Position numbers and translations under genes: made by a program | NCBI GenBank assembly: GCA_030040475.1 | Contig: JASHTQ010000127.1 | Span: 1 to 40,126 of the forward strand | Source: Streptosporangiaceae bacterium | Lineage (GTDB): Bacteria > Actinomycetota > Actinomycetes > Streptosporangiales > Streptosporangiaceae | Direction of reading: 5' to 3' | DNA: 40,126 nucleotides | Shown here: positions 19,759 to 34,736 of the stretch, piece by piece | How positions within the stretch are numbered: the first letter of the stretch is position 1 | Layout: every line of letters starts with the position of its first letter | The notes under the pieces: generated by a model | Database searches by the model: none | Seen by the model: the letters and a program-made list of their open reading frames with translations, nothing else | What the model was told of the DNA's origin: nothing

Positions 19759-20553
19759 ATGGCCTACGCGCAGGGCGCCGACGGCGCCGGGGTCTACTAC
19801 GAGGTGCACGGCAGCGGGCCGGCCGTGCTGTTCGTGCACGGTTCTGGCGGGCACCACGCCGCGTGGTGGCAGCAGGTCGCGGCGCTGCAGGGCGACCATA
19901 CGGTCATCACGATGGACCTGCGGGGCTTCGGCAACACCCGGTGGGAGCACGACCACGACGCCAGGGCCTTCCCCGGCGACATCGTGGCGGTGCTCGACGC
20001 GGTGCTCGACGCGGGCGCCGTGCCAGCCGGCCCCGTGCTCGTCGGACAGTCGATCGGTGCGGCCGCCGCGCTGCGGGCCGCGCTCGACCGGCCCGATCTC
20101 GCGTCCGGTGTCATCCTGGCGCACTCCCTCGGCGGCCTGCGGCACGATGAGCTCGCCGCGCTCGTGCGGGCCGACCGTGCCGCCGCGGAACGGCTGCCGG
20201 TGCTTGACCGGCTGCTCACGCCCGAGTTCCGCGCGCGGCGGCCGGACCTGGCGTTCCTGTTCAGGCAGATGGGCACGTTCAACACCGCGACAATGGCCGA
20301 CCTGCGCAACTTGAACAGCGACGGCCCCAGCGTCGAGGAAGTCAACGCCGCGCCGTTCCCCGTGCTGCTGCTGGCCGGGGAGCGGGACAGCGTGCTCAGC
20401 CCGGCGACCGTCCGCCGCGCCGGCGAACTGCTCACCGGAGCCCGGGTGGAGGTCGTGCCCGGCGCGCCTCACTCCATGTACTGGGAAACCCCTGACCTGT
20501 TCAACGACGCCGTCCGCCGGTTCGTCAAGGAGGCGGCTGCGTCCTCATCGTGA
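19759..20553 (+). CDS. Alpha/beta hydrolase, copy 1
   Basis: The 264-residue protein has the core signature LFVHGSGGHHAAWWQQV, nucleophile Ser98 in GQSIG, acid Asp210 in LAGERDS and His238 in GAPHSMYW. In context it may hydrolyse a C-C bond in a ring-fission product (MhpC/BphD-like) or an ester/lactone; the exact reaction is not visible. ATG 19759 is preceded by GAGGAGG, 8 bp after the VOC stop. It closes the extradiol operon. It is related to the hydrolase at 31532 (same Asp210 and His238 numbering) and to the remnant at 8213-8302. Confidence 0.88.
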   Translation: MAYAQGADGAGVYYEVHGSGPAVLFVHGSGGHHAAWWQQVAALQGDHTVITMDLRGFGNTRWEHDHDARAFPGDIVAVLDAVLDAGAVPAGPVLVGQSIGAAAALRAALDRPDLASGVILAHSLGGLRHDELAALVRADRAAAERLPVLDRLLTPEFRARRPDLAFLFRQMGTFNTATMADLRNLNSDGPSVEEVNAAPFPVLLLAGERDSVLSPATVRRAGELLTGARVEVVPGAPHSMYWETPDLFNDAVRRFVKEAAASSS

Positions 20554-20693: not shown

Positions 20694-20837
20694 ATGGGCC
20701 GGGCGCACGACCCAGATGTCCGGAGCGCCGAGAAGCATGCAATACCTGGCCTGATTTATTCCCCATTGCTATGCAGCTGATTGCTGATCGTAGTCGGCGA
20801 TCCTCTAGGGCTGATGTTGCCGGAGACAGGAAACTCG

Positions 20838-23270
20838 ATGAGTCTCGAAGCATTGGAACGAGGGTCAGGGGCCGACCGACCTCGGCCGGGAGCGAAGCCG
20901 AGCGAGTATGCCGATTACGATAAGCCAGCGGGCGGCGATAGCGAACCGGCCGTGCGCGGCCCAGTCACGCCGGCGGGGCGCATGCCGCATGTCAGTCACC
21001 GTCGAGGCGGCCGCAAACGTGGTCCTGGCCGGCAACAGGCAATCCGGTCGACGATCACCATCCTGCTGATCATTCCCCTGCTCTCGCTGGTCGCCCTGTG
21101 GGGCTACTCGGCCTCGGAGGCGCTCGGCCCGGCCCTCAGCGAGCGGGCGACGACAACGGTCAACGGCGACCTCGGCGGGCCGCTTGAAGAGTTGCTCAAC
21201 GAGGTCGGCACCGAGCAATCCGATACCTACGTCTGGCTGAGCGGTTACTCTGCGTCATCGCGGATCGCAATGGACGCGGACAGGTCGAAGACCGACGCTG
21301 ACATCTCGGCCTTCGAGGGCGGAGCGGACAAGGCAGCCGGCTCAGAGACGCCGGCTGAGAAGCGACTGCAGGCAGCCCTGCTCGCCCGGGTGAACGGACT
21401 CGCCTCGCTTCGCAAGGAGGTAGACGACGGGTCGGTCACGCCCCTGACTGCCTTCACGGATTACGGCGACATCGTGGGCGCGATTAACCCGTTCGTGAGC
21501 GCGCTGAACAATCCGGCGGACAACATCGAGCTCTATAACGAAGGCCAGGGGGCTGCCAGCCTAGGTCTGGCCATTAGCGACATCAACGAGGAATCGGCGC
21601 TCGTCAATGGCGCGCGGGTCTCCGGTGGTGCCATGCCCGCCGCGGAACTTCGGCTGTTTACCCAGATCGTCGACAACCAGCGGCTCCTGGAAAGCGAGGG
21701 TACCGAAGCGGTCGACTGGGAACTGAATCCCGATCCATTCGGCTCGATCTTCCGGTCGGCCACGTTCAGCCAGTTCCAGGGTCTGGAGAATGACATCACC
21801 TCGGCCAGCCCCGGCCGGGCGCTGCCAGTGGATTTCACTACCTGGGAGACCGACGCAGGCAAGGTGATCAGGGAGTTCATCCCGCCCGGCGGGACCGCCC
21901 GTGAAGACGTCATCAATGGCGACGCGCAAAACGCCAACTCGATCCTGAACCAGCTGATCCTCGTCGGCGGTCTCGGCCTTCTCGCCGTTATTCTCTCCTC
22001 GGTCCTGCTGCTCGGGTTCGGTAACCGGATCAGAAGGGAACTGACCGACCTGGGCCGCGCAGCCCGCGCCCTGGCGGAGGAGCGACTCCCGAACGTGGTG
22101 GAGCGGCTCCGCGCCGGTCAAGACGTCGACGTTGACGCCGAGGCGCCTCCGCTCAACCTCGACACCAGAACCCGAGAGGTCACCGATACCGCAACCGCCT
22201 TCTCCGAGGTGCGTCGCACCGCGATCGAGGCGGCCGTCGAGCAGGCCACGCTGCGCAACGGCGTCAGCCTGGTATTCCGCAGCCTGGCCAGGCGCAACCA
22301 GTCCCTGCTCCAGCGCCAGCTGCGCATGCTCGACGAAATGGAACACTCCACCGAGGATCCAGGCGCGCTTGAGCAGCTGTTCAAGATCGACCACCTGACT
22401 ACTCGCATGCGCCGTCAGGCCGAAGGACTCATCATTCTCTCCGGCGCGGCACCCGGCCGGACCTGGCGGCAGCCGGTCCCCGTCATCGAGGTGCTCCGCG
22501 GTGCCATCGGCGAGATCGAGGACTACACGCGCGTCGAGATCGCCTCGGAGGCGCCTGAGTTCATGCAGGGCGCGGCCGTCGCCGACGTCACGCACCTGCT
22601 CGCGGAACTCATCGAGAACGCGGTGCTTTACTCGCCGCCTTTCTGCCGCGTCCAGGTCAGGTCGAGCCGGGTGTCCAACGGGTACGCCATCGAGGTCGAG
22701 GACCGCGGCCTTGGCATCCCGGAAGCCACGCTGAGGGTGCTGAACGAGCGCCTAGCGATGCCGCCCGAGTTCGACCTAGCCGACAGCGACCAGCTCGGCC
22801 TCTTCGTGGTCAGCCGGCTCGCCGCCCGGCATCAGATCCGGGTCACGCTGCGCCCGTCAGGCTATGGCGGGACGCTGGCAATAGTGCTGCTGCCGCGTGC
22901 GCTGGTTGTAGCGGAGGAAGAGCCGACCTTCATCGCGGCGCAAACCGTGTCCGCCGAGGCCGGCCGCGGCCTCGGCGGCACGGGGGGCGGGCAGGCGCCG
23001 CCGAGCGACTCGTCCGGCGAAGCGCAGGCGGGTGGTTCCTGGGACCTGCCGAAGCGGCAGCCGGGCGGCAATATGGCACCGCAGCTGCACGCGGGGAGGC
23101 AGAGCGTGCCACGCGAACCGGTGGCCGAGCGCTCTCCCGAGCAGGCGCGGGCGCTGCTGTCATCCATCCGCAAAGGCTGGATGAGCGGCCTGGGCGATGG
23201 CGGCGACACCGGCGACACCGGTGGCAGCGGTTCTGCCGGTGGCAGCCGGGGGTACGGACAGGGCGGGTGA
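20838..23270 (+). CDS. Conservon sensor histidine kinase (CvnA-like, nitrate/nitrite-sensor type)
   Basis: About 810 residues. A disordered basic N-terminus precedes TM1 (about 73-95, TILLIIPLLSLVALWGY), an extracytoplasmic all-helical NIT-like sensor region (about 96-365) and TM2 (about 370-395). The cytosolic part has a HAMP-like linker, a DHp-like helix with FKIDHLTTRMRR (His519) and an ATPase domain with ELIENAVLYSPP and EDRGLGIPE. The C-terminal 130 residues are low-complexity and end near ALLSSIRKGWMSG, a conserved tail. Such CvnA proteins work with a Roadblock protein, a DUF742 protein and a GTPase rather than a response regulator. ATG 20838 (after ACAGGAAA) is favoured over TTG 20781 or ATG 20814. 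Confidence 0.9.
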   Translation: MSLEALERGSGADRPRPGAKPSEYADYDKPAGGDSEPAVRGPVTPAGRMPHVSHRRGGRKRGPGRQQAIRSTITILLIIPLLSLVALWGYSASEALGPALSERATTTVNGDLGGPLEELLNEVGTEQSDTYVWLSGYSASSRIAMDADRSKTDADISAFEGGADKAAGSETPAEKRLQAALLARVNGLASLRKEVDDGSVTPLTAFTDYGDIVGAINPFVSALNNPADNIELYNEGQGAASLGLAISDINEESALVNGARVSGGAMPAAELRLFTQIVDNQRLLESEGTEAVDWELNPDPFGSIFRSATFSQFQGLENDITSASPGRALPVDFTTWETDAGKVIREFIPPGGTAREDVINGDAQNANSILNQLILVGGLGLLAVILSSVLLLGFGNRIRRELTDLGRAARALAEERLPNVVERLRAGQDVDVDAEAPPLNLDTRTREVTDTATAFSEVRRTAIEAAVEQATLRNGVSLVFRSLARRNQSLLQRQLRMLDEMEHSTEDPGALEQLFKIDHLTTRMRRQAEGLIILSGAAPGRTWRQPVPVIEVLRGAIGEIEDYTRVEIASEAPEFMQGAAVADVTHLLAELIENAVLYSPPFCRVQVRSSRVSNGYAIEVEDRGLGIPEATLRVLNERLAMPPEFDLADSDQLGLFVVSRLAARHQIRVTLRPSGYGGTLAIVLLPRALVVAEEEPTFIAAQTVSAEAGRGLGGTGGGQAPPSDSSGEAQAGGSWDLPKRQPGGNMAPQLHAGRQSVPREPVAERSPEQARALLSSIRKGWMSGLGDGGDTGDTGGSGSAGGSRGYGQGG

Positions 23271-23695
23271 CGGCGATGAGTCCGGGGACCACCATGGGCG
23301 AAATGGACTGGCTGCTCACGAACCTCACGGCCAGCGCGGACGGGGTGCGGGCAGCGGTCATTCTCAGCGCGGATGGACTCCCGCTCGGCCGGTCGCCGGG
23401 GCTGGGCGACGCGGAGGCGGATCGCCTGGCAGCGCTCGCGTCGGGTGCACAGGGCCTCGGGTACGCCGTGGGGACGAAGTTCGGCACCGGAGCGGTGACC
23501 CAGATCATCGTCGAGATGGAGGCGGCGCTGCTGTTCATCACGTCGCCTGGCGGCGGGACGAGTCTCGCCCTGGTCGCCGACGCAGGCGCGGACGCCGGCC
23601 AGATCGCGTACGAGATGGCCATCCTCTTCAAGCGTGTCGGGCAGCACATGACCGCGGATCCCCGCAATGCCGGGCGCAGCGCGCCCGCCCGGTGA
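23267..23695 (+). CDS. Roadblock/LC7-domain protein (CvnB-like)
   Basis: A 142-residue Roadblock/LC7 protein: MDWLLTNLTASADGVRAAVILSADGLPLGRSPGL is the hallmark first helix and strands, with the later DRLAALASGAQGLGYAVG block. CvnB proteins are thought to regulate the partner small GTPase near the membrane. It overlaps the kinase stop by 4 bp (GTGA); ATG 23276 or 23294 are alternative starts. No GTPase gene follows at this locus. Confidence 0.92.
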   Translation: MTAMSPGTTMGEMDWLLTNLTASADGVRAAVILSADGLPLGRSPGLGDAEADRLAALASGAQGLGYAVGTKFGTGAVTQIIVEMEAALLFITSPGGGTSLALVADAGADAGQIAYEMAILFKRVGQHMTADPRNAGRSAPAR

Positions 23696-23728
23696 GCAGA
23701 GCGTCCGCAGGTGGGGTGAGTCGCGGCT

Positions 23729-24103
23729 GTGAACGAGGACGAAGGCAGCTGGGAGGACCGGGATGCCGGCCCGGTGTCCCGCCCCTACACGGTGACCGGC
23801 GGCCGGACGCGACCGCGCGGGAATTGGAAATTCGACCTTGCGGACATCGTCGCCCGTACTCCGGGCGCGGCGGACGCCGGCTATTCCGGCCCCGAGCGCG
23901 GCCGCATCCTTGAGCTCTGCCGCAGCCCGGTATCGGTGGCAGAGCTCTCCGCGGGAGTCGGCCTGCCGCTTGGCGTGGTCCGGGTCCTCCTCGGCGATCT
24001 GCTCCACGAGAACATGATCGAGGTCAGGGTGGCGGTTCAGCGTGGCATCGTCACCGACATGGATGTGCTCAGCAAGGTGCTCAGCGGCCTGCGCGCCCTC
24101 TGA
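23729..24103 (+). CDS. DUF742 protein (CvnC-like)
   Basis: A 124-residue DUF742 protein with the expected RPYTVTGGRTRP near the N-terminus, a winged-helix-like middle (ILELCRSPVSVAELSAGVGLPLGVVRVLLGDL) and the conserved end VLSGLRAL. Known conservons place a CvnD GTPase immediately after this gene, usually overlapping it. Here 128 bp of non-coding DNA and a class II aldolase follow instead. GTG start 33 bp after cvnB. Confidence 0.92.
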   Translation: MNEDEGSWEDRDAGPVSRPYTVTGGRTRPRGNWKFDLADIVARTPGAADAGYSGPERGRILELCRSPVSVAELSAGVGLPLGVVRVLLGDLLHENMIEVRVAVQRGIVTDMDVLSKVLSGLRAL

Positions 24104-24231: not shown

Positions 24232-24930
24232 GTGATGGCACTGGGCGCGGGGACGCCGGGAGCCGAGATAGTCACCGGCTGCCACGTGCTTGGCGCCGGC
24301 GACCATGGTGATCCCGTCTGGGGTCATGTCTCGCGGCGCGATCCGGACGGGCGCGGCATCTGGCTCAAGGCGGGGCCGCGCGGGTTTGACGAGGTTTCCG
24401 CCGACGATGTCGTGCTGATCGACTTCGACGGCCGCCGCCTGGCCGGATCGGCGACGGTGCCGCGCGAGTATCCGCTCCATACAGAGGTCCTGCGGGCACG
24501 AGTCGACATCGACAGCGTCGTGCACTGCCACCCGCCGTACGGTATCGCGCTGGCCGCGTCCGGCCAGCCGCTCTATGTGTTCTCGAACGGGGCGGGGGCG
24601 TTCGCCGCGGGCGTTCCGCGGTTCGAGGACCCGGTCGGCCTGGTCGAGACCCCCGAACTAGGCGCGGCCGTGGCTGCGTGCCTCGGCAGTGCCCGCGCGC
24701 TTTTCCTCGTCGGCCACGGCGTCATCGCCGTCGGCTCGAGCGTGCCGACCGCTGTGACCACCACGATCCTGCTGGAACGGGCGTGCAGGCTGCAGATCCT
24801 GGCGTCGGCCGCCGGCGGTGTCGCGCCCGCGCTCCAGCAACCGGGCCAGCGGTACGTTCACGCGGAATCCGACGCCTACCTGCTCCGAACCTGGGAGTAC
24901 CTCGTCAGGCAGACACGGTCTGTGCGGTGA
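24232..24930 (+). CDS. Class II aldolase/adducin family protein
   Basis: The 232-residue protein carries the zinc-site pattern of L-fuculose/ribulose phosphate aldolases: PLHTEVLRARVDIDSVVHCHPPY with His98 and His100, and His162 in LVGHGV. The N-terminal GHVSRRDPDGRGIWLKAGPRG corresponds to the phosphate/substrate loop. Members are aldolases, epimerases or decarboxylases acting on sugar phosphates or on keto acids (for example 3-hydroxy-2-oxo acids). AAGGAGC at 24219-24225 is best spaced for GTG 24232; ATG 24235 is adjacent. It stands alone between the conservon and a padR gene. Confidence 0.88.
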   Translation: MMALGAGTPGAEIVTGCHVLGAGDHGDPVWGHVSRRDPDGRGIWLKAGPRGFDEVSADDVVLIDFDGRRLAGSATVPREYPLHTEVLRARVDIDSVVHCHPPYGIALAASGQPLYVFSNGAGAFAAGVPRFEDPVGLVETPELGAAVAACLGSARALFLVGHGVIAVGSSVPTAVTTTILLERACRLQILASAAGGVAPALQQPGQRYVHAESDAYLLRTWEYLVRQTRSVR

Positions 24931-24970
24931 CCGTCAGGTGGGTCCGCAAGACGGTGCCGGGCAGTCGGTT

Positions 24971-24991
24971 GTGATACTGTCACGATATATC
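24971..24991 (+). promoter_or_regulatory. Operator-like elements upstream of padR 1
   Basis: GTGA-N5-TCAC (24971-24983) abuts the perfect 8-bp palindrome GATATATC (24984-24991), 44 bp before the padR ATG. The same GATATATC core lies in the promoter of the second padR gene (29868-29875), and close variants precede the transporter operon. PadR repressors commonly bind near their own promoters; the assignment is inferred. Confidence 0.5.
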
Positions 24992-25035
24992 TGTTGACGG
25001 GATCGCCGGACTACTGGAGCTGGGAAAAGCCGAAA

Positions 25036-25521
25036 ATGCCACGACACGGAGGACACCACGGCGGCAGGGGCGGCGGAGGTTACGGCCATCGCATCCGCAG
25101 GGGAATGGTGCCGGACCTGATCCTTGCCGCCCTTTTGGACGGGCCCGCGCATGGCTACGAGCTGATGGACCGGCTCGAGCAGAGCAGTGGCGGCAGCTGG
25201 CGGCCGAGCCCAGGTTCCATCTATCCGCTACTGCAGATGTTCCAGGATCGCGGCCTTGTCGAAAGCGAGGAGTCGGAGGGGCGGCGCGTCTTTTCTCTCA
25301 CCGATGCAGGGCGCGAGCAGGCCAGTCAACGTCGCGTCGACGCGGTTGAGGCGGACCTCCCGGCCGACTCACAGCACTCGCAGTTCCGTACCGAGATGCA
25401 GAATCTGCAGGGCGCCGGACGCCACGTGGCGGGAGCCGCGACGCCAGAGCAGATGGAAAAGGCCATCGCCATCGTCCGCGGCGCCCGGCAGGCCCTGTAC
25501 CGGCTCATGGCCGAGGAATAG
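25036..25521 (+). CDS. PadR-family transcriptional regulator 1
   Basis: The 161-residue protein opens with a Gly/His/Arg-rich stretch (HGGHHGGRGGGG), then a PadR winged helix (about 23-95: LILAALLDGPAHGYELMDRL, SWRPSPGSIYPLLQMFQDRGLV, RRVFSLTDAGRE) and a helical dimerisation tail ending ALYRLMAEE. PadR proteins often repress detoxification or phenolic-acid genes until a small ligand binds. ATG 25036 was chosen because it is the first ATG and keeps the whole domain; the ribosome site (GGGAAAAG) is weak. An O-methyltransferase gene follows after 15 bp. Confidence 0.9.
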   Translation: MPRHGGHHGGRGGGGYGHRIRRGMVPDLILAALLDGPAHGYELMDRLEQSSGGSWRPSPGSIYPLLQMFQDRGLVESEESEGRRVFSLTDAGREQASQRRVDAVEADLPADSQHSQFRTEMQNLQGAGRHVAGAATPEQMEKAIAIVRGARQALYRLMAEE

Positions 25522-25536
25522 CGGAGGGGAGGACTG

Positions 25537-26244
25537 ATGGACCCAGAACCGGTGACCTCCACCGCGGCGTATCGAGGTCCCCTCATCGATCCGCGGGTCC
25601 GCGCGGTGCTGGACCGTCTCCATGGGCCGTCGGGCCGGCCTGACGGCGGACGCGGCGGACGCGGCGGAGGCGGCCGGGGAGGATGGCGCGGCGGCGGGGA
25701 CTCCTCTTTCGCGGATCCATTCGCCCGGGCAGGCCACGCGCTTGCAATTCGGCCCGAGCAGGGTGACCTCATTTACCTCCTGTGCCGGGCAACCGGGGCC
25801 ACCCGGGTCGTCGACTTCGCGACGTCCTTCGGCGTCTCGGCGATCTACTTCGCTGCTGCCTTGCGCGATAACGGCGGCGGCACCGTGGTCGGCGCCGAGA
25901 TCGTGCCCGAGAAGGTCGCGACCGCCAGGCGTAACCTGGCAGCGGCCGGGCTGGCGGATTTTGCCGACATCCGGCTGGGAGACGCACGAGAGACGCTCCG
26001 CGACCTGGGCGGGGCGGTGGATTTCGCGCTGATCGACGGCTTCCCGGTAGGCTCCGGTCCCTCGCTCGCCCGACAGGTGTTTGAAGTGGTGGCGCCTCAG
26101 CTTCGGATCGGCGCGCTGGTGATGAACGACAACGGCGAGTCCGACTACCTCGAGCTCGTGCGGGATCCGGCAGGCGGATTCCGGTCCCTGTCGCTGCCGA
26201 TTAAGGGCTCGACAGAGCTGTCGGTGAAGGTGGCGATCCAGTAG
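25537..26244 (+). CDS. Class I SAM-dependent O-methyltransferase
   Basis: The 235 residues follow the COMT-like O-methyltransferase (family 3/24) pattern: RPEQGDLIYLLCRATGATRVVDFATSFGVSAIYFA (SAM motif I), VVGAEIVPEKVATARRNL (acidic ribose contact), and VDFALIDG as the metal/catalytic region. A Gly/Arg-rich insert (about 33-53: GGRGGRGGGGRGG) interrupts the N-terminal part and is unusual. It probably methylates a small hydroxylated compound such as a catechol. It has GGAGGGGAGG upstream and forms an operon with padR 1, which suggests an inducible detoxification pair. Confidence 0.87.
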   Translation: MDPEPVTSTAAYRGPLIDPRVRAVLDRLHGPSGRPDGGRGGRGGGGRGGWRGGGDSSFADPFARAGHALAIRPEQGDLIYLLCRATGATRVVDFATSFGVSAIYFAAALRDNGGGTVVGAEIVPEKVATARRNLAAAGLADFADIRLGDARETLRDLGGAVDFALIDGFPVGSGPSLARQVFEVVAPQLRIGALVMNDNGESDYLELVRDPAGGFRSLSLPIKGSTELSVKVAIQ

Positions 26245-26279
26245 CCGGGCTGACCCGATTTCGCACCGTCGCGATAGCG

Positions 26280-27170
26280 TTACCGGCGCTTCGCGAGGGC
26301 TGCCGCGTTATCCCACCAGAGCACCCGCGACCTGACCACGGCCAGCAGGGCCGTTAGCAGGATGCCGAGCAGGCACAGCAGGACGATCGCGGTCCAGGCG
26401 ATGGCCAGCTCGCCCTGGCCGGACGCGGTCTGGACCAGCGACCCCAATCCGGACGAGGTTCCCGCCGCGGCGATCTCCGCGATCGTCGCGCCCACGACCG
26501 CCAGCGGCATGGCGATCCGGAGGCCCGCGAACAGGAACGGCAGGCTGCCGGGCAGCTGCAGGTGCCAGAACGTCTCCCAGCGGCTGACATGCAGTGTCGT
26601 CAGGACATCGAGGGTGCGCCCGTCGACGTCGCGCAGGCCCGTAAGCGTGTTGACCAGGACGGGGAAGAACACGACGATCGCGGTAACGAGATACTTCGGC
26701 ACCGGGCCGAATCCGAAGATGATCACCAGGGCCGGCGCGATCGCGACGATCGGCGTCACCATCAAGGTCACCATCAGTGGCATGAGAGCCCGCTCCAGGA
26801 TCCGGACCTGGACCATCATGATGGCCAGCAGGAACCCGGCAAGGATTCCGCAGCCGGCGCCGATCGCGACTTCCCCGAGGGTGGTCAGGAAGGCGTGCCA
26901 GTACAGGGCCGGATTGCCCTTCAGGCTGCGCCACATCGCGCCGATCGTCGGGAGCGCATACGAATGATGCGTCGCATACAGGTCCCATGCGAGGGCCGCC
27001 AGGCAGAAGGCGACGAGCGGTGGCAGCCAGGACGCCGCCTTTGACCTCCGGAGCACGGCCGGGGAGGAGCGCGCGCTGCGTGGCCGCTCCACAGGCCCGT
27101 CGGCTCTCGCCGTCCCCGGCGGGCCGATCGTGGCGTTGGATCGATCGTGCAACCGCTCGGCCTCAGACAC
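26280..27170 (-). CDS. ABC transporter permease (SsuC/TauC/nitrate-type)
   Basis: A 296-residue permease with six or so membrane segments (LVAFCLAALAWDLYA, IGAGCGILAGFLLAIMMV, LMVTLMVTPIVAIAPALVIIFGF) and the EAA loop WETFWHLQLPGSLPFLFAGLRIAMPLAVVG. This is the BPD_transp_1 type that imports sulfonates, nitrate, thiamine precursors or aromatic acids. The GTG start at 27170 overlaps the ATPase stop by 8 bp and has GGAGG upstream; a longer frame to 27317 would overlap the ATPase gene heavily. Last gene of the three-gene minus operon. Confidence 0.88.
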   Translation of the reverse strand: MSEAERLHDRSNATIGPPGTARADGPVERPRSARSSPAVLRRSKAASWLPPLVAFCLAALAWDLYATHHSYALPTIGAMWRSLKGNPALYWHAFLTTLGEVAIGAGCGILAGFLLAIMMVQVRILERALMPLMVTLMVTPIVAIAPALVIIFGFGPVPKYLVTAIVVFFPVLVNTLTGLRDVDGRTLDVLTTLHVSRWETFWHLQLPGSLPFLFAGLRIAMPLAVVGATIAEIAAAGTSSGLGSLVQTASGQGELAIAWTAIVLLCLLGILLTALLAVVRSRVLWWDNAAALAKRR

Positions 27171-28050
27171 CCGGCCCACCTCCTGCTGAGTCCCATGCCC
27201 TGGATGCACTGCCTGTCGAGACACTGTGCAGCAGCACTTGGACTTCGTGCTGGATCCGCTGGAACTCAGGATTGGAGAACATCTCCCGCGACCGCGGCCG
27301 CGGCAGGCCGACATCAACGATCTGGCGGATACAGCCTGGCTGCGGGGACATCACGACGATACGATCCGAGAGGATCACGGCCTCGAGCACCGAGTGCGTC
27401 ACGAACAGCACGGCCTTGCGGTGGGCCTGCCAGAAATGCAGCAAGCCCATTCGCTGCCGGTCACGATTCCACTCGTCGAGCGCCGAGAAGGGCTCGTCCA
27501 TCAGCAGCACGTCGGGATTGAACGCGTACGCGCGCGCGATCGCGACGCGCTGCTGCATGCCGCCCGAGAGCTGGGCCGGGTAGCGATCCAGCGCGTCACC
27601 GAGTCCGAGCGCGCCCAGGATCTCCACCGGGTCCCCGAGCGCCCGCCCTCCGTTGCCCTTGGGATTGATCTTGAGGGCGAGCTCGACGTTGCTGCGGACG
27701 CTGCGCCAGGGCAGCAGCGCCGGCTCCTGCGGGACCAGGCCGACCGCCTTCGCCCGCGTCGCGTCCGCAACGCACGCGCCGTTGATCAAGATCCGTCCCG
27801 CGTCCGGCGAGGAGAGACCGGCCACCAGCTTCAGCAGCGTCGACTTGCCGCATCCGCTGGGACCGATGATCGAGACGAACTCACCCCGGCCGATCGACAG
27901 GCTCACGTCGTCCAGGATCAGGCACCGGCCGGCACCCTCGCCAAGCGACTTCGCCACGGCTTCAAGGAGGACGCCGCCGCCGGGGGCACTGGTAGCCTCG
28001 CCGCCCGCCGCGGGCGCCTCATGACGATGACGCTTCCGCGCGTGGAGCAT
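27163..28050 (-). CDS. ABC transporter ATPase (SsuB/TauB/nitrate-type)
   Basis: The 295-residue ATPase has Walker A GPSGCGKST, Q-loop VPQEPALLPW, signature LSGGMQQRVAIARAY, Walker B VLLMDEPFSALDE and H-switch LFVTHSVLEAV, all intact. About 40 N-terminal residues are basic or low complexity. ATG 28050 is preferred with GGAGAG 5-10 nt upstream; a frame extended to 28152 crosses the intergenic hairpin and has no ribosome site. It couples ATP hydrolysis to the permease encoded next. Confidence 0.9.
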   Translation of the reverse strand: MLHARKRHRHEAPAAGGEATSAPGGGVLLEAVAKSLGEGAGRCLILDDVSLSIGRGEFVSIIGPSGCGKSTLLKLVAGLSSPDAGRILINGACVADATRAKAVGLVPQEPALLPWRSVRSNVELALKINPKGNGGRALGDPVEILGALGLGDALDRYPAQLSGGMQQRVAIARAYAFNPDVLLMDEPFSALDEWNRDRQRMGLLHFWQAHRKAVLFVTHSVLEAVILSDRIVVMSPQPGCIRQIVDVGLPRPRSREMFSNPEFQRIQHEVQVLLHSVSTGSASRAWDSAGGGPGV

Positions 28051-28096
28051 GAATCTCTCCGATCCTTTCCAGCCATTGCGCCAGGTAGCGCAAGGA

Positions 28097-28133
28097 CCTG
28101 GCCGACCGGCAGGAGTTCCGCCGGTCGGCCAGG
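28097..28133 (-). terminator. Strong hairpin between binding-protein and ATPase genes
   Basis: CCTGGCCGACCGGC (28097-28110) pairs perfectly over 14 bp with GCCGGTCGGCCAGG (28120-28133) around a 9-nt loop. It lies in the 135-bp gap after the binding-protein stop on the minus strand. No T-run follows, so partial termination or 3' protection of the binding-protein mRNA is more likely than full termination. Confidence 0.6.
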
Positions 28134-28185
28134 GCCCGTACCACCCACCCAACGGCAGCGCTGTTGCGTGCTGCCTGCTACCGGG

Positions 28186-29370
28186 CTACGGCCATATGAG
28201 CTGGCCGTTCTTGTAGAGGCCGGTCACGATCGACGAGTCGTACGTGGTCGAGAGCTGCGGCACCGTGAGCTTCGTGCTGACACCGGACAGCTGGTTGGCC
28301 AGCGGGCCGAAGTCCTGGAACTTGTTATACTCGGCCGCCCACTCGGTGGGCGACACCGAGCCGAGCGGCTGCGTCCCGTACTCCTTGATGTACTTCACAT
28401 TGAAGTTCCACCCGGCCACCATCGTCGCCTTGCCGAAGGCCGGCCCGGCATTGTGTGCCGCGGCCACGCTGGCCATGTAGTCCTCGCAGGCCGGCGCGTT
28501 GGCGATGCAGTAGTCCAGCGCCTTGATGTCGGCGCGCACGAAATCGGAGACGGCCTGTGGATGTGCCTGGAGGAAGACCTTATTGAAGACCATCACATCC
28601 GCGGTTCCCTTGATGCCGAACTGCGCCTCGGTGTACTCGTGGAAGGGGATGTGCATCGCGTCAAGCGCCAGGTCCTGGTTGCCCTCATCGGCCACGATCG
28701 CGTCGACCTGACCTTGCGTGATGATGGCCGGGTTCTGGTTCGACAGCGACACGTACTTCACCTTCGACAGGTCGACGCCGGCCGCCTTCAGGATCGACAG
28801 CTCGTCGGAGCCCAGTACGCCGAAGTAGCCCAGGGTGCCCCCCTCAAGCTGCTTGAGGTTCGTGATCTTGCTGTTGGTCAGGATCGTGGTCTGGCTGGAA
28901 TCCGCGATCGTCTCCACGGCCTCGAAGTTCGATCCGGCACCGACCTCGCTGATCACCGGAACCGCCCCGCCGAAGCTGCTTGCCTGTGCGCGGTCGGAGG
29001 ACACGAGGCTGTCCTGGGTACCCGCCCCGTTGGAGACCACGTCGACGTTCAGGCACAGGTCGCTGAAGTACCCTAGCTCCTTCGCCATGAACACGTCGAC
29101 AATCCCGGCCGTGGGGGCGTACCCGAACGGCGAGATGTAGGTGATCGTTCCGGCCGCCTTGTTGGCAGCGCACTCTGCCGCAGAGAACCCGCTCCCTCCG
29201 CTGGCCGCGGTGGCGGTCGCGGTCGCGGCGTTCGTGGCGGTCGTACTGCTGCCCGAGCTGCAGCCGGCAACCGCCGCCACGGCCGCCAGCAGGCCAGCAC
29301 ACAGCGCGCCGGCACGCACAAATGGGCGTCTGCCCGGTGAAACCGGAACCCCGGACTTAGTTCGCAGCAT
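28186..29370 (-). CDS. ABC transporter substrate-binding lipoprotein (NMT1/SsuA-like)
   Basis: This 394-residue protein has a basic N-terminus, a hydrophobic signal segment and a lipobox AVAGC, then a Thr/Ala-rich linker. The mature part begins TITYISPFGYAPTAGIVDVFMAKELGYF, typical of the NMT1/THI5/SsuA type II binding fold (approach to the ligand: LGYFGVLGSDEL, VDAIVADEGNQDLAL). Such proteins bind sulfonates, nitrate, pyrimidine precursors or aromatic carboxylates. GAGGAAGAAGG upstream gives a strong ribosome site. Upstream lie a clear promoter and four operator-like repeats. It leads the operon binding protein, ATPase, permease. Confidence 0.9.
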   Translation of the reverse strand: MLRTKSGVPVSPGRRPFVRAGALCAGLLAAVAAVAGCSSGSSTTATNAATATATAASGGSGFSAAECAANKAAGTITYISPFGYAPTAGIVDVFMAKELGYFSDLCLNVDVVSNGAGTQDSLVSSDRAQASSFGGAVPVISEVGAGSNFEAVETIADSSQTTILTNSKITNLKQLEGGTLGYFGVLGSDELSILKAAGVDLSKVKYVSLSNQNPAIITQGQVDAIVADEGNQDLALDAMHIPFHEYTEAQFGIKGTADVMVFNKVFLQAHPQAVSDFVRADIKALDYCIANAPACEDYMASVAAAHNAGPAFGKATMVAGWNFNVKYIKEYGTQPLGSVSPTEWAAEYNKFQDFGPLANQLSGVSTKLTVPQLSTTYDSSIVTGLYKNGQLIWP

Positions 29371-29460
29371 CCTTCTTCCTCTCGTTCAGAGTCGGCGCGC
29401 TCCACCGCGTCGCCTTCTCCCGCCGGCCTAGCAGGCCAGCCCGGTAGGTCGGGAATATCA

Positions 29461-29538
29461 TGATGTATCGTGATGTATCGTCATCAAGGCCTTGCAATAG
29501 AGCCAGGAGAGATTAACGTGATGTATCGTGATGTATCG
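29461..29538. promoter_or_regulatory. Four TGATGTATCG repeats in two tandem pairs
   Basis: Exact copies of TGATGTATCG lie at 29461-29470, 29471-29480, 29519-29528 and 29529-29538. Each has the near-palindromic core GATGTATC, one base away from the GATATATC found at both padR promoters. The upstream pair overlaps the expected transcription start of the transporter operon and the second pair lies in its leader, a layout suited to repression. The regulator is inferred to be one of the PadR proteins. Confidence 0.7.
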
Positions 29539-29540
29539 CG

Positions 29541-29570
29541 AAGGTAAACACTCCCGGAGAATAATGTCAA
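29541..29570 (-). promoter_or_regulatory. Promoter of the binding-protein/ATPase/permease operon
   Basis: Read on the minus strand: TTGACA (29565-29570), 18 bp, TACCTT (29541-29546). Transcription should start near 29534, inside a TGATGTATCG repeat, leaving a leader of about 160 nt. Confidence 0.6.
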
Positions 29571-29849
29571 CCCCTGGTCATGTGGCCCGGGCCGGGCGAT
29601 GGCCCGGCGGCGTCAGGTCCTTGCTTATGCCGCTAAGGCTGGCGGTCGCGCCCGTGAACTCGGCCGGAGCGTAAAGGACGTGCGCCAGGAACTGCTCTAA
29701 GGATGAGCCTAGAGACACCGCGGGCACGCGGAAGGAGTGATCCCTGCACACATTGATTGACCGAACCGCCATCATCCGGATCGCGGCGACGGCGGCAGCC
29801 GGACGAGACGACTGACGGAGCTATCCGGCCCGACCGGCCTCCCCCGTGC

Positions 29850-29877
29850 TTGACATCCGCACGTAGTGATATATCAT
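29850..29877 (+). promoter_or_regulatory. padR 2 promoter with embedded palindrome
   Basis: TTGACA (29850-29855), 16 bp, TATCAT (29872-29877). The perfect 10-bp palindrome TGATATATCA (29867-29876) covers the -10, an ideal place for a repressor to block RNA polymerase and hence for PadR autoregulation. Confidence 0.65.
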
Positions 29878-29926
29878 TGACATATCGCTTATGGCGGACG
29901 GAAGAGGAAGAACGGAAGAGGAAGAG

Positions 29927-30496
29927 ATGTATAACGAGGCGTTTGCCTACCCGTACCCGCACCGCACGGGCCGCCGCGGCGGCCGTCGCGGCAGGGGTGC
30001 CGGAAACTGGGCCGATCCCTGGTTCGGCCCCGGATACGCTGCCGCCCCTGGCTGGCGCCGTGGCAGCGGCGCCCGTCTTGCGCTGCTGACGCTGCTGAGG
30101 GCCGACAGCCCGCGCAGCGGCTACCAGTTCATGCAGGACCTGGCCGGCCTCGGTTACGGATACCGGCGTCCTGGCCCCGGCCTGGTCTACGGCACTCTGG
30201 CCCAGCTGGAAGACGAGGGCCTGATCCGCGAAACCGTCGGCGAGCCCGGAGCTGGCCGTACCTTCGAGCTGACGGACGCCGGCACGGCGTACCTCGACCG
30301 GCTCGGCAGCAGGCCGGCTCCCTGGGGACCGCCCGGCACCGGCCTCCCCGCGCTGCATCAGGCGACTCGCGCGATCGCCGCCGCCGCCCGGGAGGTCGCC
30401 CGCGACGGCGACGGGGAAAAGGCAGCCAAGGCCGCGGGATTGCTCAACGAGACACGAAAGGCGCTGTACCGGCTCCTGACCGGCGACGCCGAGTAA
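29927..30496 (+). CDS. PadR-family transcriptional regulator 2
   Basis: The product has 189 residues: a basic Arg/Gly-rich N-terminal arm (RTGRRGGRRGRG, about 13-24), a PadR winged helix (about 48-120: LALLTLLRADSPRSGYQFMQDL, RPGPGLVYGTLAQLEDEGLI, RTFELTDAG) and a C-terminal helix ending TRKALYRLLTGDAE. ATG 29927 directly follows AAGAGGAAGAG, a good site; ATG 29891 would add 12 residues but lies only about 7 nt from the predicted transcript start. Its own promoter contains TGATATATCA. It precedes the PPOX/VOC/hydrolase operon by 81 bp and may be cotranscribed with it. Confidence 0.88.
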   Translation: MYNEAFAYPYPHRTGRRGGRRGRGAGNWADPWFGPGYAAAPGWRRGSGARLALLTLLRADSPRSGYQFMQDLAGLGYGYRRPGPGLVYGTLAQLEDEGLIRETVGEPGAGRTFELTDAGTAYLDRLGSRPAPWGPPGTGLPALHQATRAIAAAAREVARDGDGEKAAKAAGLLNETRKALYRLLTGDAE

Positions 30497-30577
30497 AACC
30501 GCCGCGGCCCGTCGGCACGACGTGGACCGCAACCGCGCGTTTCCGCTGACCATGCAACCTGCGAGCAAGGAGATGAG

Positions 30578-31024
30578 ATGGCGGACAAGATCGACTTGAC
30601 CGGGATCGCCGACGCGATCAACAGCGCGCTGCTGCGCGAGCGCCCGGTGGTGGTGGCCGCCGTCGACGCCGACGGCAATCCACAGGTGTCGTTCCGCGGC
30701 AGCACGCACGTGTACTCGCCCGACCAGATCGCGATCTGGGCGCGTAAGCGCGACGAGGGCCTGGTCACTTACATCGCCGACAATCCCAGCGTGTCGCTGC
30801 TGTACTACGACCCGGCTCAAGGCCCCGACCCCGCCGTCTCGCCGCGCAGGGTGCTGATCAAGGGCCGCGCCCGCGTCGAGCCATCCGCTAACGAGGCCGT
30901 ATACCAGGGCATTCCGGAACCGGAGCGGCAGCGCGACCCGGACAGGCGCGGAGTCGCGATCATCATCGACGTCGATTCGGTGGCCGGCTTCGGCGGTAGA
31001 GGGCCGATCAGGCAAGCCCGCTAG
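30578..31024 (+). CDS. PPOX-fold (pyridoxamine-phosphate-oxidase-like) flavin-binding protein
   Basis: The 148-residue protein has the split-barrel pattern: RERPVVVAAVDADGNPQVSFRGSTHVYS, then IAIWARKRDEGLVTYIADNPSVSLLYYDP and VLIKGRARVE. Members bind FMN, F420 or haem; actinomycete members often reduce substrates with F420. Which cofactor is used cannot be seen. AAGGAG lies 7 nt before ATG 30578. It is the first gene of a catabolic operon with a VOC protein, a hydrolase and a flavin reductase, so a role in the same chemistry is likely (inference). Confidence 0.83.
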   Translation: MADKIDLTGIADAINSALLRERPVVVAAVDADGNPQVSFRGSTHVYSPDQIAIWARKRDEGLVTYIADNPSVSLLYYDPAQGPDPAVSPRRVLIKGRARVEPSANEAVYQGIPEPERQRDPDRRGVAIIIDVDSVAGFGGRGPIRQAR

Positions 31025-31114
31025 CCGCCCCCCTTGACAGCATTCTCGGGCTGTGCAGCTCCTGCCGCAGGCCCGCCAGCTTCCCAGATCACCAAGCAGC
31101 GAAAGGAAAGCACG

Positions 31115-31528
31115 TTGACTACCAGCGTCGATAAGAGCACGGACGCGCACAGCATCCACCACGTCAACTTCCCGATCACCGACCCTGCCAGGACGGAGGA
31201 GTGGTACGGGAAGGTGTTCGGGATGCGGCGGATCATCACTAACCGACGATCCGGCTCGGCGAACGCCCCCACGGTCCAGGCCCTACTCATGACCCACGGG
31301 AATTTCGACCTGCATTTCTCGCCGATTCCCGAGCTGAACGCGGTCGTTCACTACCACTTCGCGATCGAGGTCGAGGACTTCGACGCGTTCCTCAAGCACC
31401 TCGACGCGCTCGGCGTCCCCTACGACGAGCCCTACCACCGGCCTCAGAACAATTCCCGGACGACCACGATCCACGACCCCGACGGCCACCACGTCGAGAT
31501 CACCTATCACGGCGACCGTGACTGGTGA
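31115..31528 (+). CDS. VOC family protein, copy 2
   Basis: A 137-residue single VOC domain related to the protein at 19289: shared runs include IHHVNFP, EWY-KVFGM, GNFDLHF, YHFAIEVED and IHDPD. Likely ligands are His16, His81 and Glu128. It lacks the Ala-rich tail of copy 1. TTG 31115 is chosen as start because AAAGGAAAG (31102-31110) precedes it and homology to copy 1 begins shortly after; the longer frame from 31034 has no ribosome site. The hydrolase copy 2 starts 3 bp after the stop, as in the first cassette. Confidence 0.83.
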   Translation: MTTSVDKSTDAHSIHHVNFPITDPARTEEWYGKVFGMRRIITNRRSGSANAPTVQALLMTHGNFDLHFSPIPELNAVVHYHFAIEVEDFDAFLKHLDALGVPYDEPYHRPQNNSRTTTIHDPDGHHVEITYHGDRDW

Positions 31529-31531
31529 CCC

Positions 31532-32323
31532 ATGCCCTACGTGACCACGGAAGAATCCGACGTCTACTACGAGATCCACGGCGAGGGTGCCCCGCTCGTG
31601 CTGCTGCACGGCGGGGGCGGCAACCACGCCGCCTGGTGGCAGCAGGTCCCGCACTTCGCCGACCGCTACCAGGTCATCATTCCTGACCTGCCCGGCTTCG
31701 GGCTCTCGAAGGTCAAGAACGGCCGGTACGACACCGCCGTGCACCCGGGAGCGATTCTCGCTGTCCTCGACGACGCCGGCCTTGACCGCGCCTTTATCGT
31801 CAGCCAGTCCCTTGGCGGCTACAGCACGCTCAAGGTCGCCGTCACCCACACCGAGCGGGTCGCCGGCATAGCGATGACCAGCACCCTCGGTCCCTTCGGC
31901 GACGAGATCTCCGAGCTGAACGAGAAGGGACGCGCCGCCGCGGCCGGCATGAGGGCCGCGGACTTCCTGCTCACCAGGCAGTTCCGGGAGCGCGAGCCGG
32001 AGAAGGTCTACCTGTTCTACCAGGTGGGAAGCTTCAACGAGACCGGCCCAGGGCGGCCGATCCGGCTCCGCAACTCCCTCGCCGGTTCCGTCCCCGTCCG
32101 GCAGGTTCGCGACGCCATCAAGGCCGGCCTGCACGTCACCATTCTGCAGGGCGGCGCAGACATGATCGCCTACCCGCCTGCCTATGACCGTCTCAGGGAG
32201 CTGCTGCCCGAGGCGAACGTGCAGCTGGTGGAAGGCGCGCCGCACTCCGACTACTGGGAGAACCCGCAGCGGTTCAACGGTGTCATCGACGAGATCCTCG
32301 ACAAGGCCTACCCGCCACGGTGA
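31532..32323 (+). CDS. Alpha/beta hydrolase, copy 2
   Basis: The 263-residue protein pairs with copy 1: LLHGGGGNHAAWWQQV, acid Asp210 (GGADMIA) and His238 (GAPHSDYW) have identical numbering. The nucleophile is Ser93 in SQSLGG, so the elbow is S-x-S-x-G rather than G-x-S-x-G; this is seen in some active haloperoxidase/MhpC relatives. C-C bond hydrolase, esterase and lactonase are all possible. The start is 3 bp after the VOC stop with no strong ribosome site, implying translational coupling. Confidence 0.88.
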   Translation: MPYVTTEESDVYYEIHGEGAPLVLLHGGGGNHAAWWQQVPHFADRYQVIIPDLPGFGLSKVKNGRYDTAVHPGAILAVLDDAGLDRAFIVSQSLGGYSTLKVAVTHTERVAGIAMTSTLGPFGDEISELNEKGRAAAAGMRAADFLLTRQFREREPEKVYLFYQVGSFNETGPGRPIRLRNSLAGSVPVRQVRDAIKAGLHVTILQGGADMIAYPPAYDRLRELLPEANVQLVEGAPHSDYWENPQRFNGVIDEILDKAYPPR

Positions 32324-32347
32324 ACCAGATCCACAGGGGAGGTCCGC

Positions 32348-32926
32348 ATGCTTGCGCTGCTGGATCCAGGTAACCGGCGGCCCGGGATGGCTGGCGGGCG
32401 GATGATCGCGATCGAGCGCGACGCCCCGGACGGGCGGCGGCTGCGGGAGGCCTACGGGTGCTTCCCCAGCGGCGTGGCCGCAGTGTGCGCCCTGGTGGAG
32501 GGCGCGCCCTGTGGTATGGCGGTCAGCTCGTTCGCCTCGGTGTCCGTTGCTCCCCCGCTCGTGTCCATATGCATGAAGGGCACGTCGACGACCTGGCCCA
32601 GGCTGCGTGGCCAGCCCCGACTCGGGCTCAGCATCCTCGCCGAGGACCAGGACGGCGCCTGCAGAAAACTGTCCGGCAACGTCGGCGACCGGTTCGGCGG
32701 CGTGCGGTGGCACGCTACGGACGACGGTGCGCTTTTCGTCCACGGCTCGGTCGCATGGTTCGACTGCTCGGTCTTTGCCCTGCTGGCCGCGGGGGACCAT
32801 GTAATTGCCCTGCTGGAAGTGCGCAGCCTGTGGTCTGGGAAGGCCAGCGCGCCGCTGGTGTTCCACGGCAGCCGGTTCCGCCGCCTGGCGCCCGAACGGG
32901 AGCCAACCTGCTGCCGGGACTTCTGA
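32348..32926 (+). CDS. Flavin reductase domain protein (HpaC-like)
   Basis: The 192-residue protein has the flavin-reductase-like split barrel: LREAYGCFPSGVAAVCALVEGAPCGMAVSSFASVSVAPPLVSICM, then LGLSILAEDQ and GDRFGGVRW. Members supply reduced FMN/FAD to two-component monooxygenases. No monooxygenase gene is visible in the window, so its partner is either elsewhere or the PPOX-fold protein. GGGGAGG precedes ATG 32348. Its stop overlaps the next ATG (TGATG), coupling it to padR 3. Confidence 0.88.
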   Translation: MLALLDPGNRRPGMAGGRMIAIERDAPDGRRLREAYGCFPSGVAAVCALVEGAPCGMAVSSFASVSVAPPLVSICMKGTSTTWPRLRGQPRLGLSILAEDQDGACRKLSGNVGDRFGGVRWHATDDGALFVHGSVAWFDCSVFALLAAGDHVIALLEVRSLWSGKASAPLVFHGSRFRRLAPEREPTCCRDF

Positions 32927-33471
32927 TGGAGGGCACCTTCGGCCGGGACCCGGATTTCATGCGCGGGCCTCGGGTGCGGCGGGGTGACGTCCGGGCGGCG
33001 GCACTGTCGCTGCTAGCCGAAGGGCCGCACAACGGTTATCAGATCATCCAGGAGATCAGCGAGCGTACCGACGGCGTCTGGCGCCCGAGCCCCGGATCCG
33101 TCTACCCCGCCCTTGAGCAGTTGCAGGAAGAAGGGCTGATCCAGGCCAAGACCGAGACAAATAGCCGGAGAACCTTCTGGCTGACCGACAAGGGCATTAC
33201 GTACGCGGAGGCCCACGCCGGCGAGCTCAGCACGTCGTGGGATGCGGTGGTCGGGAGAGTGGACGACGCCGAAATCCAGCTCAGACGGTTGCTCCGTCAG
33301 GTCCTGATGGCCGTCTCCCAGGTAAGCCAGGTCGGCTCGGTCACGCAGGTCACACAGGCCGCGAAGGTGCTGACCGAAACCCGCCGGTCCCTTTATTGGC
33401 TCCTCGCGGCGGATGACCAGGACATCGCGGAAGGCGATGCCGGGCCGGCCGCTTCGCCGCACCGCGGCTAG
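32926..33471 (+). CDS. PadR-family transcriptional regulator 3
   Basis: The 181-residue protein has a winged helix at about 21-90 (LSLLAEGPHNGYQIIQEI, RPSPGSVYPALEQLQEEGLI, RTFWLTDKG), a longer helical C-terminal region with QVSQVGSVTQVTQAA, and the end TRRSLYWLLAADDQ, similar to the ends of the other two. It is coupled to the flavin reductase by TGATG overlap. It is the last gene of its operon, suggesting feedback control. It lacks the Gly/Arg-rich N-terminal arm of the other two. Confidence 0.9.
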   Translation: MEGTFGRDPDFMRGPRVRRGDVRAAALSLLAEGPHNGYQIIQEISERTDGVWRPSPGSVYPALEQLQEEGLIQAKTETNSRRTFWLTDKGITYAEAHAGELSTSWDAVVGRVDDAEIQLRRLLRQVLMAVSQVSQVGSVTQVTQAAKVLTETRRSLYWLLAADDQDIAEGDAGPAASPHRG

Positions 33472-33504
33472 TCCAGCATGAACGCGGTCCTTCGGGCTGG
33501 CGCT

Positions 33505-33912
33505 CTAGTCGCGGACCATTTGGTCGGCTGGGGAGAGGTGCTCGACCGTTTCGCCGGTGTCGGCGAACGTTCTGGTGACGTAGGTGGAGGTGTAGACCCA
33601 GAGGATTTTCATCGGGGCGGTGCCGGTATTGCGGAAGCAGTGGACTATTCCGGCTTTGACGTAGGTCGTGTCGTCCGGGATTAGGGGGGTGACCTTTCCG
33701 TCGATCTCGACCTCCCCGATTCCGCCGAGAAGGGTCACGTGCTCGTCGCAATTGTGCGAGTGCGCGGGCGCGCCGGTGCCCGGCGGGTAGCTGCTGATGC
33801 CGGTCGTGATCTTGGCGTCTTCGGCCGCGCTCTGCCGTGTGATCAGCGGAATCGTGACCACCCCGCCGCCGCGGCCCAGCCTGGCGACCTGCTCCGCCTT
33901 GATCACCGTCAT
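33505..33912 (-). CDS. Cupin-domain protein
   Basis: The 135-residue protein is a single cupin: motif 1 [17 protein letters not shown] followed by GEVEIDG supplies two His (HSH), a Glu and a later His; motif 2 lies around [11 protein letters not shown]. Small cupins are dioxygenases, isomerases or sensors. ATG 33912 with GGGAGAA upstream is clear; the longer frame crosses the divergent operator. It is transcribed away from the carboxymuconolactone-decarboxylase-like gene with a perfect inverted repeat between. Confidence 0.85.
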
Positions 33913-33949
33913 GCTTTCTCCCTTCGGCTGGATGCTATGGCGGCGCCGT

Positions 33950-33986
33950 CGCACGGATGCGAACACTAATCGTTCGCATCCGTGCG
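33950..33986. promoter_or_regulatory. Perfect 15-bp inverted repeat between divergent genes
   Basis: CGCACGGATGCGAAC (33950-33964) and GTTCGCATCCGTGCG (33972-33986) are exact reverse complements separated by 7 nt. The element is 37 bp from the cupin start and 53 bp from the facing gene, in a 127-bp gap. It is a strong candidate operator for both genes; a transcript hairpin is the alternative. Confidence 0.75.
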
Positions 33987-34039
33987 GGATAGGCGTGGAA
34001 CACTGCCAGAAATCGCAGCGACTACAGACGGGAATCGGG

Positions 34040-34615
34040 ATGCGGCTACCCCAGCTGACCGAGCTTTCCGCGCGCCAGCAGGAGATCAGCGACCGGATCA
34101 CCGGTCGCCGCGGCGGCACGCGGGGGCCGTTCCTTGTCTGGCTCAGAAGCCCGGAACTGTGCGAGAAGGTCGAGGCGCTCGGCGCCTACTGCCGCTTCGA
34201 GTCCTCGCTTGACCCCCGGCTTCGCGAACTGAGCCTGCTCATCGCCGCCAGGCAGGGGGACGCGCAGTACTCCTGGAACGCGCACGTGGGCAAGGCCGTG
34301 GACCTCGGGGTGTCGGCGGACGCCCTGGCCGCGCTCGCGGAACGGCGGGAACCCTGCTTCACCCACCGGGACGAGCAGATCCTCTACCAGTTCAGCACCG
34401 AGATCCTGGCCGACCACTTCGTCGGCGACGAGACCTTCGCGCTGGCCCTCGAGGAGTTCGGCGAACGGGGCCTTGTCGACCTGATCGGCAGCCTGGGCAA
34501 CTTCTCGATGCTCGCGATGCTCCTCAACGCCTTCCAGGTCGACCTGCAGCCGGTCGACCCGCCGTTCCCGGACCTGCGCGGCTACGCGCGGGCGCCAGGC
34601 CCGGACCTTGTCTGA
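34040..34615 (+). CDS. Carboxymuconolactone decarboxylase-family protein
   Basis: A 191-residue all-helical protein with the CMD core: [39 protein letters not shown], where the conserved His of AHVGKA is present and the AhpD-type CxxC is absent, so a peroxidase role is unlikely. Some PcaC-like proteins act in beta-ketoadipate chemistry; many have unknown roles. ATG 34040 follows GGGAATCGGG; the in-frame extension to 33797 would cross the divergent inverted repeat. It is probably co-regulated with the cupin. Confidence 0.83.
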
Positions 34616-34654
34616 TGTCCCAGGTTTGCCTGTGGCGGTTTGTCGGGCGGCATC

Positions 34655-34683: not shown

Positions 34684-34736
34684 GGTAGTCACGGTGGGAC
34701 TACTGGCCTTGGCGGCGCAGGGAGGGGCAGGTCCGG

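Follow-up and report, generated by a model that had tools for sequence, protein, structure and literature searches.

PadR repressors that govern both themselves and an ATP-binding cassette (ABC) transporter are already known from LmrR of Lactococcus lactis, whose target LmrCD is a drug exporter. Riboflavin binds the repressor and lowers its affinity for DNA (PMC4534193), and the LmrR operators contain ATGT/ACAT, the known PadR motif with a spacer of 8-10 bases (PMC3506622). SrcmRII, an actinobacterial PadR-like repressor of the Streptomyces chromomycin cluster, also lies beside ABC transporter genes, and the portion of its description available to us gives no operator (PMC5992853). Here, we analyzed a stretch of 40,126 nucleotides from a Streptosporangiaceae bacterium (assembly GCA_030040475.1, contig JASHTQ010000127.1, positions 1-40,126; hereafter the window), in which the motif GATATATC stands before two PadR genes, padR1 and padR2, and four repeats holding its one-base variant GATGTATC are found at an ABC importer operon divergent from padR2. 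An earlier reading of the sequence (the original prediction) had taken these GATRTATC motifs (R, A or G) for operators through which one PadR or both might control the transporter, an O-methyltransferase gene and the operon behind padR2.

The locus resembles LmrR/lmrCD in its PadR regulators, their likely autoregulation and an ABC transporter as candidate target, and differs from it in that the transporter is an importer. In addition, riboflavin is a ligand of LmrR, and the importer family of the window is found in clusters that resemble riboflavin catabolism (see below). Like the ATGT/ACAT operator, the window sites consist of brief half-sites repeated at a distance of about one helical turn and close to a promoter, but the sequence of these half-sites is another. 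An exact ATGT-N8-10-ACAT match is absent from the window, for which the canonical PadR motif was rejected, and no exact ATGT/ACAT motif occurred within 40 base pairs (bp) of any of the 96 GATRTATC sites in the fetched loci L081-L179. Since neither the window nor the neighborhood of any of the 96 sites contains the exact canonical motif, the GATATATC operator is, judged by its sequence, of a different class. We found no description of such an operator in the open-access literature, although other papers, or a different wording, may hold one.

A probable operator shared by actinobacterial PadR genes

The PadR genes and their sites are located in the window as follows.

24984-24991, no strand: GATATATC operator core before padR1, flanked upstream by GATACTGTC
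25036-25521, plus strand: padR1, PadR family regulator (PF03551), canonical recognition helix RPSPGSIYP; start codon inferred
29850-29877, plus strand: padR2 promoter TTGACA-16-TATCAT
29868-29886, no strand: padR2 operator GATATATC-ATT-GACATATC, overlapping the -10, units 11 bp apart
29927-30496, plus strand: padR2, PadR family regulator, divergent recognition helix RPGPGLVYG
32926-33471, plus strand: padR3, third PadR regulator, overlapping the stop of the flavin reductase gene; canonical helix

At padR2, GATATATC occupies 29868-29875 within TGATATATCA (29867-29876), and the second unit GACATATC (29879-29886) lies 11 bp downstream of the first. The padR1 gene probably starts at the ATG at 25036, which would leave 44 bases between the GATATATC site and the start codon. 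For padR2 a start at 29927, not 29891, is probable because of the comparison with its 98% relative P0097. The positions given in the original prediction for GATATATC before padR1 and at padR2, and for four copies of TGATGTATCG at 29461-29538, were exact, and the overlap of the padR2 site with a -10 that it had described was found at the TTGACA-16-TATCAT promoter. In the whole window GATRTATC gave 8 strand-matches (6 sites) against 0.49 expected, a number reached in none of 100 shuffles, and a chance origin of the repeats was rejected. All 6 sites fall within the three named regions, those of padR1, padR2 and the importer.

Comparison with other genomes connected the motif with PadR genes. Relatives of padR2 were sought in the genomes of 20 loci that we chose from 80 loci carrying relatives of the importer's binding protein, and in 17 of the 20 the best relative had a GATRTATC in the 350 bp preceding its matched segment, as GATATATC in 16 cases and as GATGTATC in one (L083). 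The other three (L089, L099, and L100) had no GATRTATC within that distance. In L099, two GATATATC sites 25 bp apart (544-576) precede a gene that itself precedes padR in the same direction, and this operator may drive an operon with padR as the second gene. Similarly, 139 of 297 Streptosporangiales genomes contained a padR2 match with an expectation (E) value of 1e-18 or better, and among the 30 loci inspected from these genomes, 26 had GATATATC within 420 bp upstream of the relative, the remaining four having just 46-86 bp of upstream sequence before the contig end. Alignment of 17 PadR promoters gave the consensus CGATATATCGTTGACGnATCGCG, which leans on the closely related Streptomyces that contributed several of them. 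Downstream of its core, GATNNATC-like units showed peaks at 11 and 21 bp.

Searches that did not depend on a protein gave the same association. The two-unit form GATATATCRTTGANNNATC was found at 16 sites in 16 of 148 genomes, with none for the reversed-pattern control, and a PadR gene followed in the right direction at every one of them, 14-229 bp to the matched segment. With the looser form GATATATCNTNNNNNNATC, 41 of 61 genomes yielded a total of 54 sites, and the control none. Inspection covered the 27 newly fetched of these sites, a further 4 being already among the 16 GATATATCRTTGANNNATC sites and 23 lying outside it, and a PadR gene was located within 450 bp in 22 of the 27. The five exceptions were L161, apparently due to chance, and L175-L178, which are described below. 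The background density of GATATATC across loci L001-L080 was one in 1.27 megabases. A matrix based on the 17 aligned promoters, all from other genomes and with the window left out, ranked the padR1 site (26.1 bits) and the padR2 site (23.3 bits) first and second in the window, compared with maxima of 5.4-13.8 bits in 10 random windows. As the top two hits of this matrix, both sites fit the features that define the class, namely a GATATATC core, further units 10-11 bp off and a position upstream of a PadR gene.

These results strongly support GATATATC as an operator-like element that is widespread at the PadR promoters of actinobacteria. Counting against this, many of the comparison genomes are mutually related, so that the counts are not independent events. 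Since the motif recurs at PadR loci and the padR1 and padR2 sites hold the first two matrix ranks, these two sites are well supported as PadR operators, and autoregulation of both genes is likely as the simplest reading. This part of the original prediction, GATATATC as a PadR operator, is thus strongly backed at the sequence level (17/20, 26/30, and 16/16 loci). PadR genes of a large actinobacterial group have one recognisable operator in common, unlike ATGT/ACAT, and a shared operator lets PadR regulons be predicted from sequence across actinobacterial genomes. The widely shared operator is the solid result here, with the importer as a candidate target.

The importer repeats as a candidate PadR target

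The importer operon and padR2 are divergent, and the elements and genes on the importer side are the following.

29461-29480, no strand: repeat pair 1, TGATGTATCG twice at 10-bp spacing
29519-29538, no strand: repeat pair 2, TGATGTATCG twice, spanning the start site that the candidate importer promoter predicts
29570-29565 and 29546-29541, minus strand: candidate importer promoter, TTGACA-18-TACCTT, 9 of 12 consensus positions
28186-29370, minus strand: substrate-binding protein, NMT1/THI5-like (PF09084), first gene of the importer operon
27163-28152, minus strand: importer ATPase (PF00005) open reading frame (ORF), start uncertain
26280-27317, minus strand: importer permease (PF00528) ORF, overlapping the ATPase ORF, start uncertain

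The exact TGATGTATCG copies (29461-29470, 29471-29480, 29519-29528, and 29529-29538) form two tandem pairs 58 bp apart, start to start, and the array is built purely of GATGTATC units. The candidate promoter, which was found under relaxed criteria only and is absent from the list of the stricter promoter scan, would put the transcription start inside pair 2, with pair 1 about 55-75 bases downstream.

Several observations are in favor of a PadR at these repeats. A single mismatch separates the GATGTATC repeat unit from the PadR core, a proximity that 0.7% of shuffles of the 10-base unit reach in a comparison suggested by the data, which is a guide and not a clean test. At L083, moreover, a PadR gene with a canonical-type helix carries GATGTATC for its core. 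Near-copies of the tandem array (GATRTATCGTGATRTATCG, at most 1 mismatch) occurred at 3 sites in 296 actinomycete genomes, each with a PadR gene downstream, 121-251 bp to the matched segment. Among 394 genomes, the exact pattern GATRTATCN{2,3}GATRTATC had 3 distinct sites, of which L101 and L102 lie at PadR genes (L102 being also counted among the three GATRTATCGTGATRTATCG sites) and L103 lies within coding sequence. In addition, the four GATATATCNTNNNNNNATC loci L175-L178, one from each of 4 genomes, carry an array of 10-11-bp units starting GATATATCTTTACTATATC (1501-1535 in L175) before the gene of a DrrA-type ABC ATPase; the product, tested for L175, scores above the threshold of the DrrA family of daunorubicin-resistance ABC ATPases. 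These loci are 93-95% identical and represent one target family, and no PadR gene was found in their 3.0 kilobases (kb), about 1.5 kb to either side. The DrrA-type gene is likely a remote regulon member, and its array counts in favor of the importer link.

Other results weigh against the importer as a PadR target. The 10-bp-spaced near-copies at PadR genes each hold one GATATATC unit, and the importer array holds none. Three of the four importer repeats score 5.7-7.5 bits in the PadR matrix (one on the minus strand), within the maxima of the random windows, and the fourth is outside the top 12 of the window. An exact double GATGTATC was found in none of 394 other genomes, and GATGTATCGTGATGTATC with up to 2 mismatches was found in 5 of 249 genomes compared with 2 control matches, with a PadR gene in none of the five loci. 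No GATRTATC was found near the binding-protein gene in 80 relatives (28-42% identical, two of them with less than 200 bp of upstream sequence). The distance of 58 bp between the pairs is about 5.5 helical turns, unfavorable to simple looping, and looping between the two pairs was disfavored by this arithmetic. The altered helix of PadR2, described in the next section, may also mean that its own operator differs.

Some of these results fit a regulator of another family, encoded elsewhere, that would bind the GATGTATC repeats and leave the two GATATATC sites as the only PadR operators: the matrix scores of the repeats are no higher than those of random windows, a second double GATGTATC array was not found, and relatives of the importer are without the site, one of two related clusters inspected (L036) having a TetR gene upstream instead. 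However, the closeness of the unit to the PadR core, the tandem near-copies, all three of which lie at PadR genes, and padR2 as the divergent neighbor speak for a PadR, and padR1, padR2 and padR3 are the only regulator genes that Pfam recognised among the ORFs tested at 24232-36200. We consider a non-PadR regulator rather unlikely. With results both for and against, we lean, with modest confidence, towards control of the importer by a PadR through the GATGTATC repeats, a plausible form of the same operator that would make the transporter a regulon member. The claim of the original prediction that the transporter belongs to the regulon thus gained from the near-copies, the divergence from padR2 and a candidate start within the repeats, and lost from the matrix scores, the want of a second double array and the relatives without a site. 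The O-methyltransferase gene and the PNPOx, VOC and hydrolase genes, which it had also included, would, from the gene layout, be controlled only via the padR promoters that they follow.

Two further searches were directed at these repeats. A scan of viral contigs for the tandem repeat found nothing. Footprinting of the importer region by a close relative failed, as the best binding protein in the genome collection was 42% identical.

Recognition helices and site specificity

PadR2 has the helix RPGPGLVYG, in contrast to the near-invariant RPSPGS(V/I)YP, and padR1 and padR3 are canonical. Glycine at the first serine of the helix occurred in 4 of 123 aligned PadRs (120 listed padR2 relatives and the three of the window). 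The 98% relative P0097 and the nearest relatives P0098-P0100 likewise depart from the canonical helix. In the fetched loci this position was serine in 88 of 88 stretches fitting a motif-based expression, a count that covers fitting helices and leaves out proteins such as those of L083 and L099. A search of 392 Streptomyces genomes with P0099 (E 1e-28) returned no PadR2-type relatives, an empty result that is uninformative.

PadR2 either still reads GATATATC or reads a variant such as GATGTATC. Because its helix is divergent and a third padR exists, the proposal that one PadR reads all three regions has become less certain. The specificities may be split, PadR1 and PadR3 reading GATATATC at the padR promoters and PadR2, with its rare glycine, reading GATGTATC and controlling the importer alone; the purely GATGTATC array would agree with this. 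However, PadRs with canonical-type helices also have GATGTATC nearby, as core or second unit (L083, where it is the core, and L102), so the variant alone proves no switch of specificity, and we regard such a split as tentative and rather unlikely.

GATATATC could also be a conserved -10 element for RNA polymerase instead of an operator, as its overlap with the -10 at padR2 might indicate. This is very improbable, since the two-unit forms lie mostly at PadR genes (16/16 and 22/27 inspected) and the further units conserved at about 11 and 21 bp are needless for a -10. Similarity of the motifs by chance, which would have next to negligible probability, is refuted for the padR sites by the excess of matches in the window and the conservation across genomes.

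Proposed mechanism

From the computed sequences, their conservation at PadR genes and the gene layout, we infer a scheme of binding and repression, with a particular PadR, a ligand and the importer as a target, that we consider probable as a whole though far from assured. The operator would be a series of GATNNATC-like units that follow one another at roughly one helical turn (10-11 bp), with GATATATC as the core, and would lie over the -10 at padR2. The padR1 and padR2 genes would most likely be autorepressed, or cross-repressed by PadR1, 2 or 3, and a ligand that frees the repressor would raise the expression of the read-through genes behind each padR. The four GATGTATC repeats of the importer most likely represent variants of the GATATATC operator units, at which a local PadR, most simply PadR2, would sit on pair 2 at the start site and on pair 1 in the leader and block transcription of the importer. 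The block would be lifted in the presence of a ligand, perhaps a flavin-like or aromatic compound. A more elaborate arrangement, distinctly improbable to us, would have PadR2 change its helix and operator together, read the four-unit GATGTATC array and switch on a flavin-type importer with a flavin-like ligand. In that arrangement PadR1 and PadR3 would still use the ancestral GATATATC to control the expression of padR, so that three PadRs would form a nested network within 8.5 kb. The window is thus a testable case, with three PadRs of related, non-identical DNA-reading helices beside an importer with a variant array, and is useful for asking how PadR specificity shifts and whether a PadR can govern uptake instead of efflux.

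Neighboring genes and importer substrate

The other genes of the region are arranged behind padR1 and padR2.

25537-26244, plus strand: O-methyltransferase-like gene, directly after padR1
30578-31024, plus strand: PNPOx-like protein (PF01243), after padR2 on the same strand
31034-31528, plus strand: VOC/glyoxalase-fold protein
31532-32323, plus strand: alpha/beta hydrolase
32348-32926, plus strand: flavin reductase (PF01613)

The genes from padR1 through padR3 are all Pfam-supported, with PF03551 domain E values of 3.8e-19 for padR1, 1.6e-10 for padR2 and 2.3e-18 for padR3. The padR3 gene, missing from the original prediction, closes the padR2 gene run and had no GATRTATC of its own in the scan of the window. 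No riboswitch was found in the importer leader with Rfam on 24900-30600, where the sole match (28072-28153) was sub-threshold, at 22.4 bits compared with a gathering score of 50 (E 0.35).

The binding protein has a 72% relative (P0001) on a short contig; its best relative in the genome collection is 42% identical, and plasmids contributed three distant relatives. Many of the 80 loci, from Devosia, Microbacterium, Leifsonia and others, have a binding-protein relative together with the ATPase and the permease, and a flavin reductase follows after a few kb. The Microbacterium/Devosia clusters resemble the window in their importer genes (no more than 42% identity for the binding protein, mostly 53-63% for the ATPase) and in the flavin reductase (39-53%; 43% for L036). 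Both loci inspected, L003 and L036, also carry a luciferase-like monooxygenase, and L003 a riboflavin kinase too. The riboflavin-to-lumichrome pathway of M. maritypicum uses the flavin-dependent monooxygenase RcaE, and the portion of that account available to us names no importer (PMC12746152). The gene content of the importer clusters resembles this pathway, those of Microbacterium and Devosia being probably for riboflavin catabolism, and the luciferase-like proteins would correspond to RcaE. The window differs from the Microbacterium/Devosia clusters, whose importers lack GATRTATC, in that no luciferase-like monooxygenase or flavokinase was found in it (best tblastn match of the two monooxygenases, E 0.44), and full riboflavin catabolism within the window was rejected for want of a monooxygenase or kinase of that kind. 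Our guess for the importer substrate is a flavin-like or heteroaromatic compound.

Further observations concern the rest of the window. The few named relatives of its histidine kinase include proteins of Trebonia and Streptosporangiaceae, and the host is probably an uncultured actinobacterium of this sort. Pairs of VOC and alpha/beta-hydrolase genes on the plus strand at about 19200-20553 and at 31034-32323 look alike by eye in the ORF lists, a possible duplication. Across 1-40126, a catabolic island is suggested by a number of aldehyde dehydrogenases together with an ABC system at about 757-4867 and further genes of catabolic appearance, recognised for the most part by eye in the ORF lists. 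Finally, a histidine kinase with a NIT domain, a Roadblock protein and a DUF742 protein are encoded consecutively on the plus strand at 20781-24103, a row that resembles the actinobacterial conservons.

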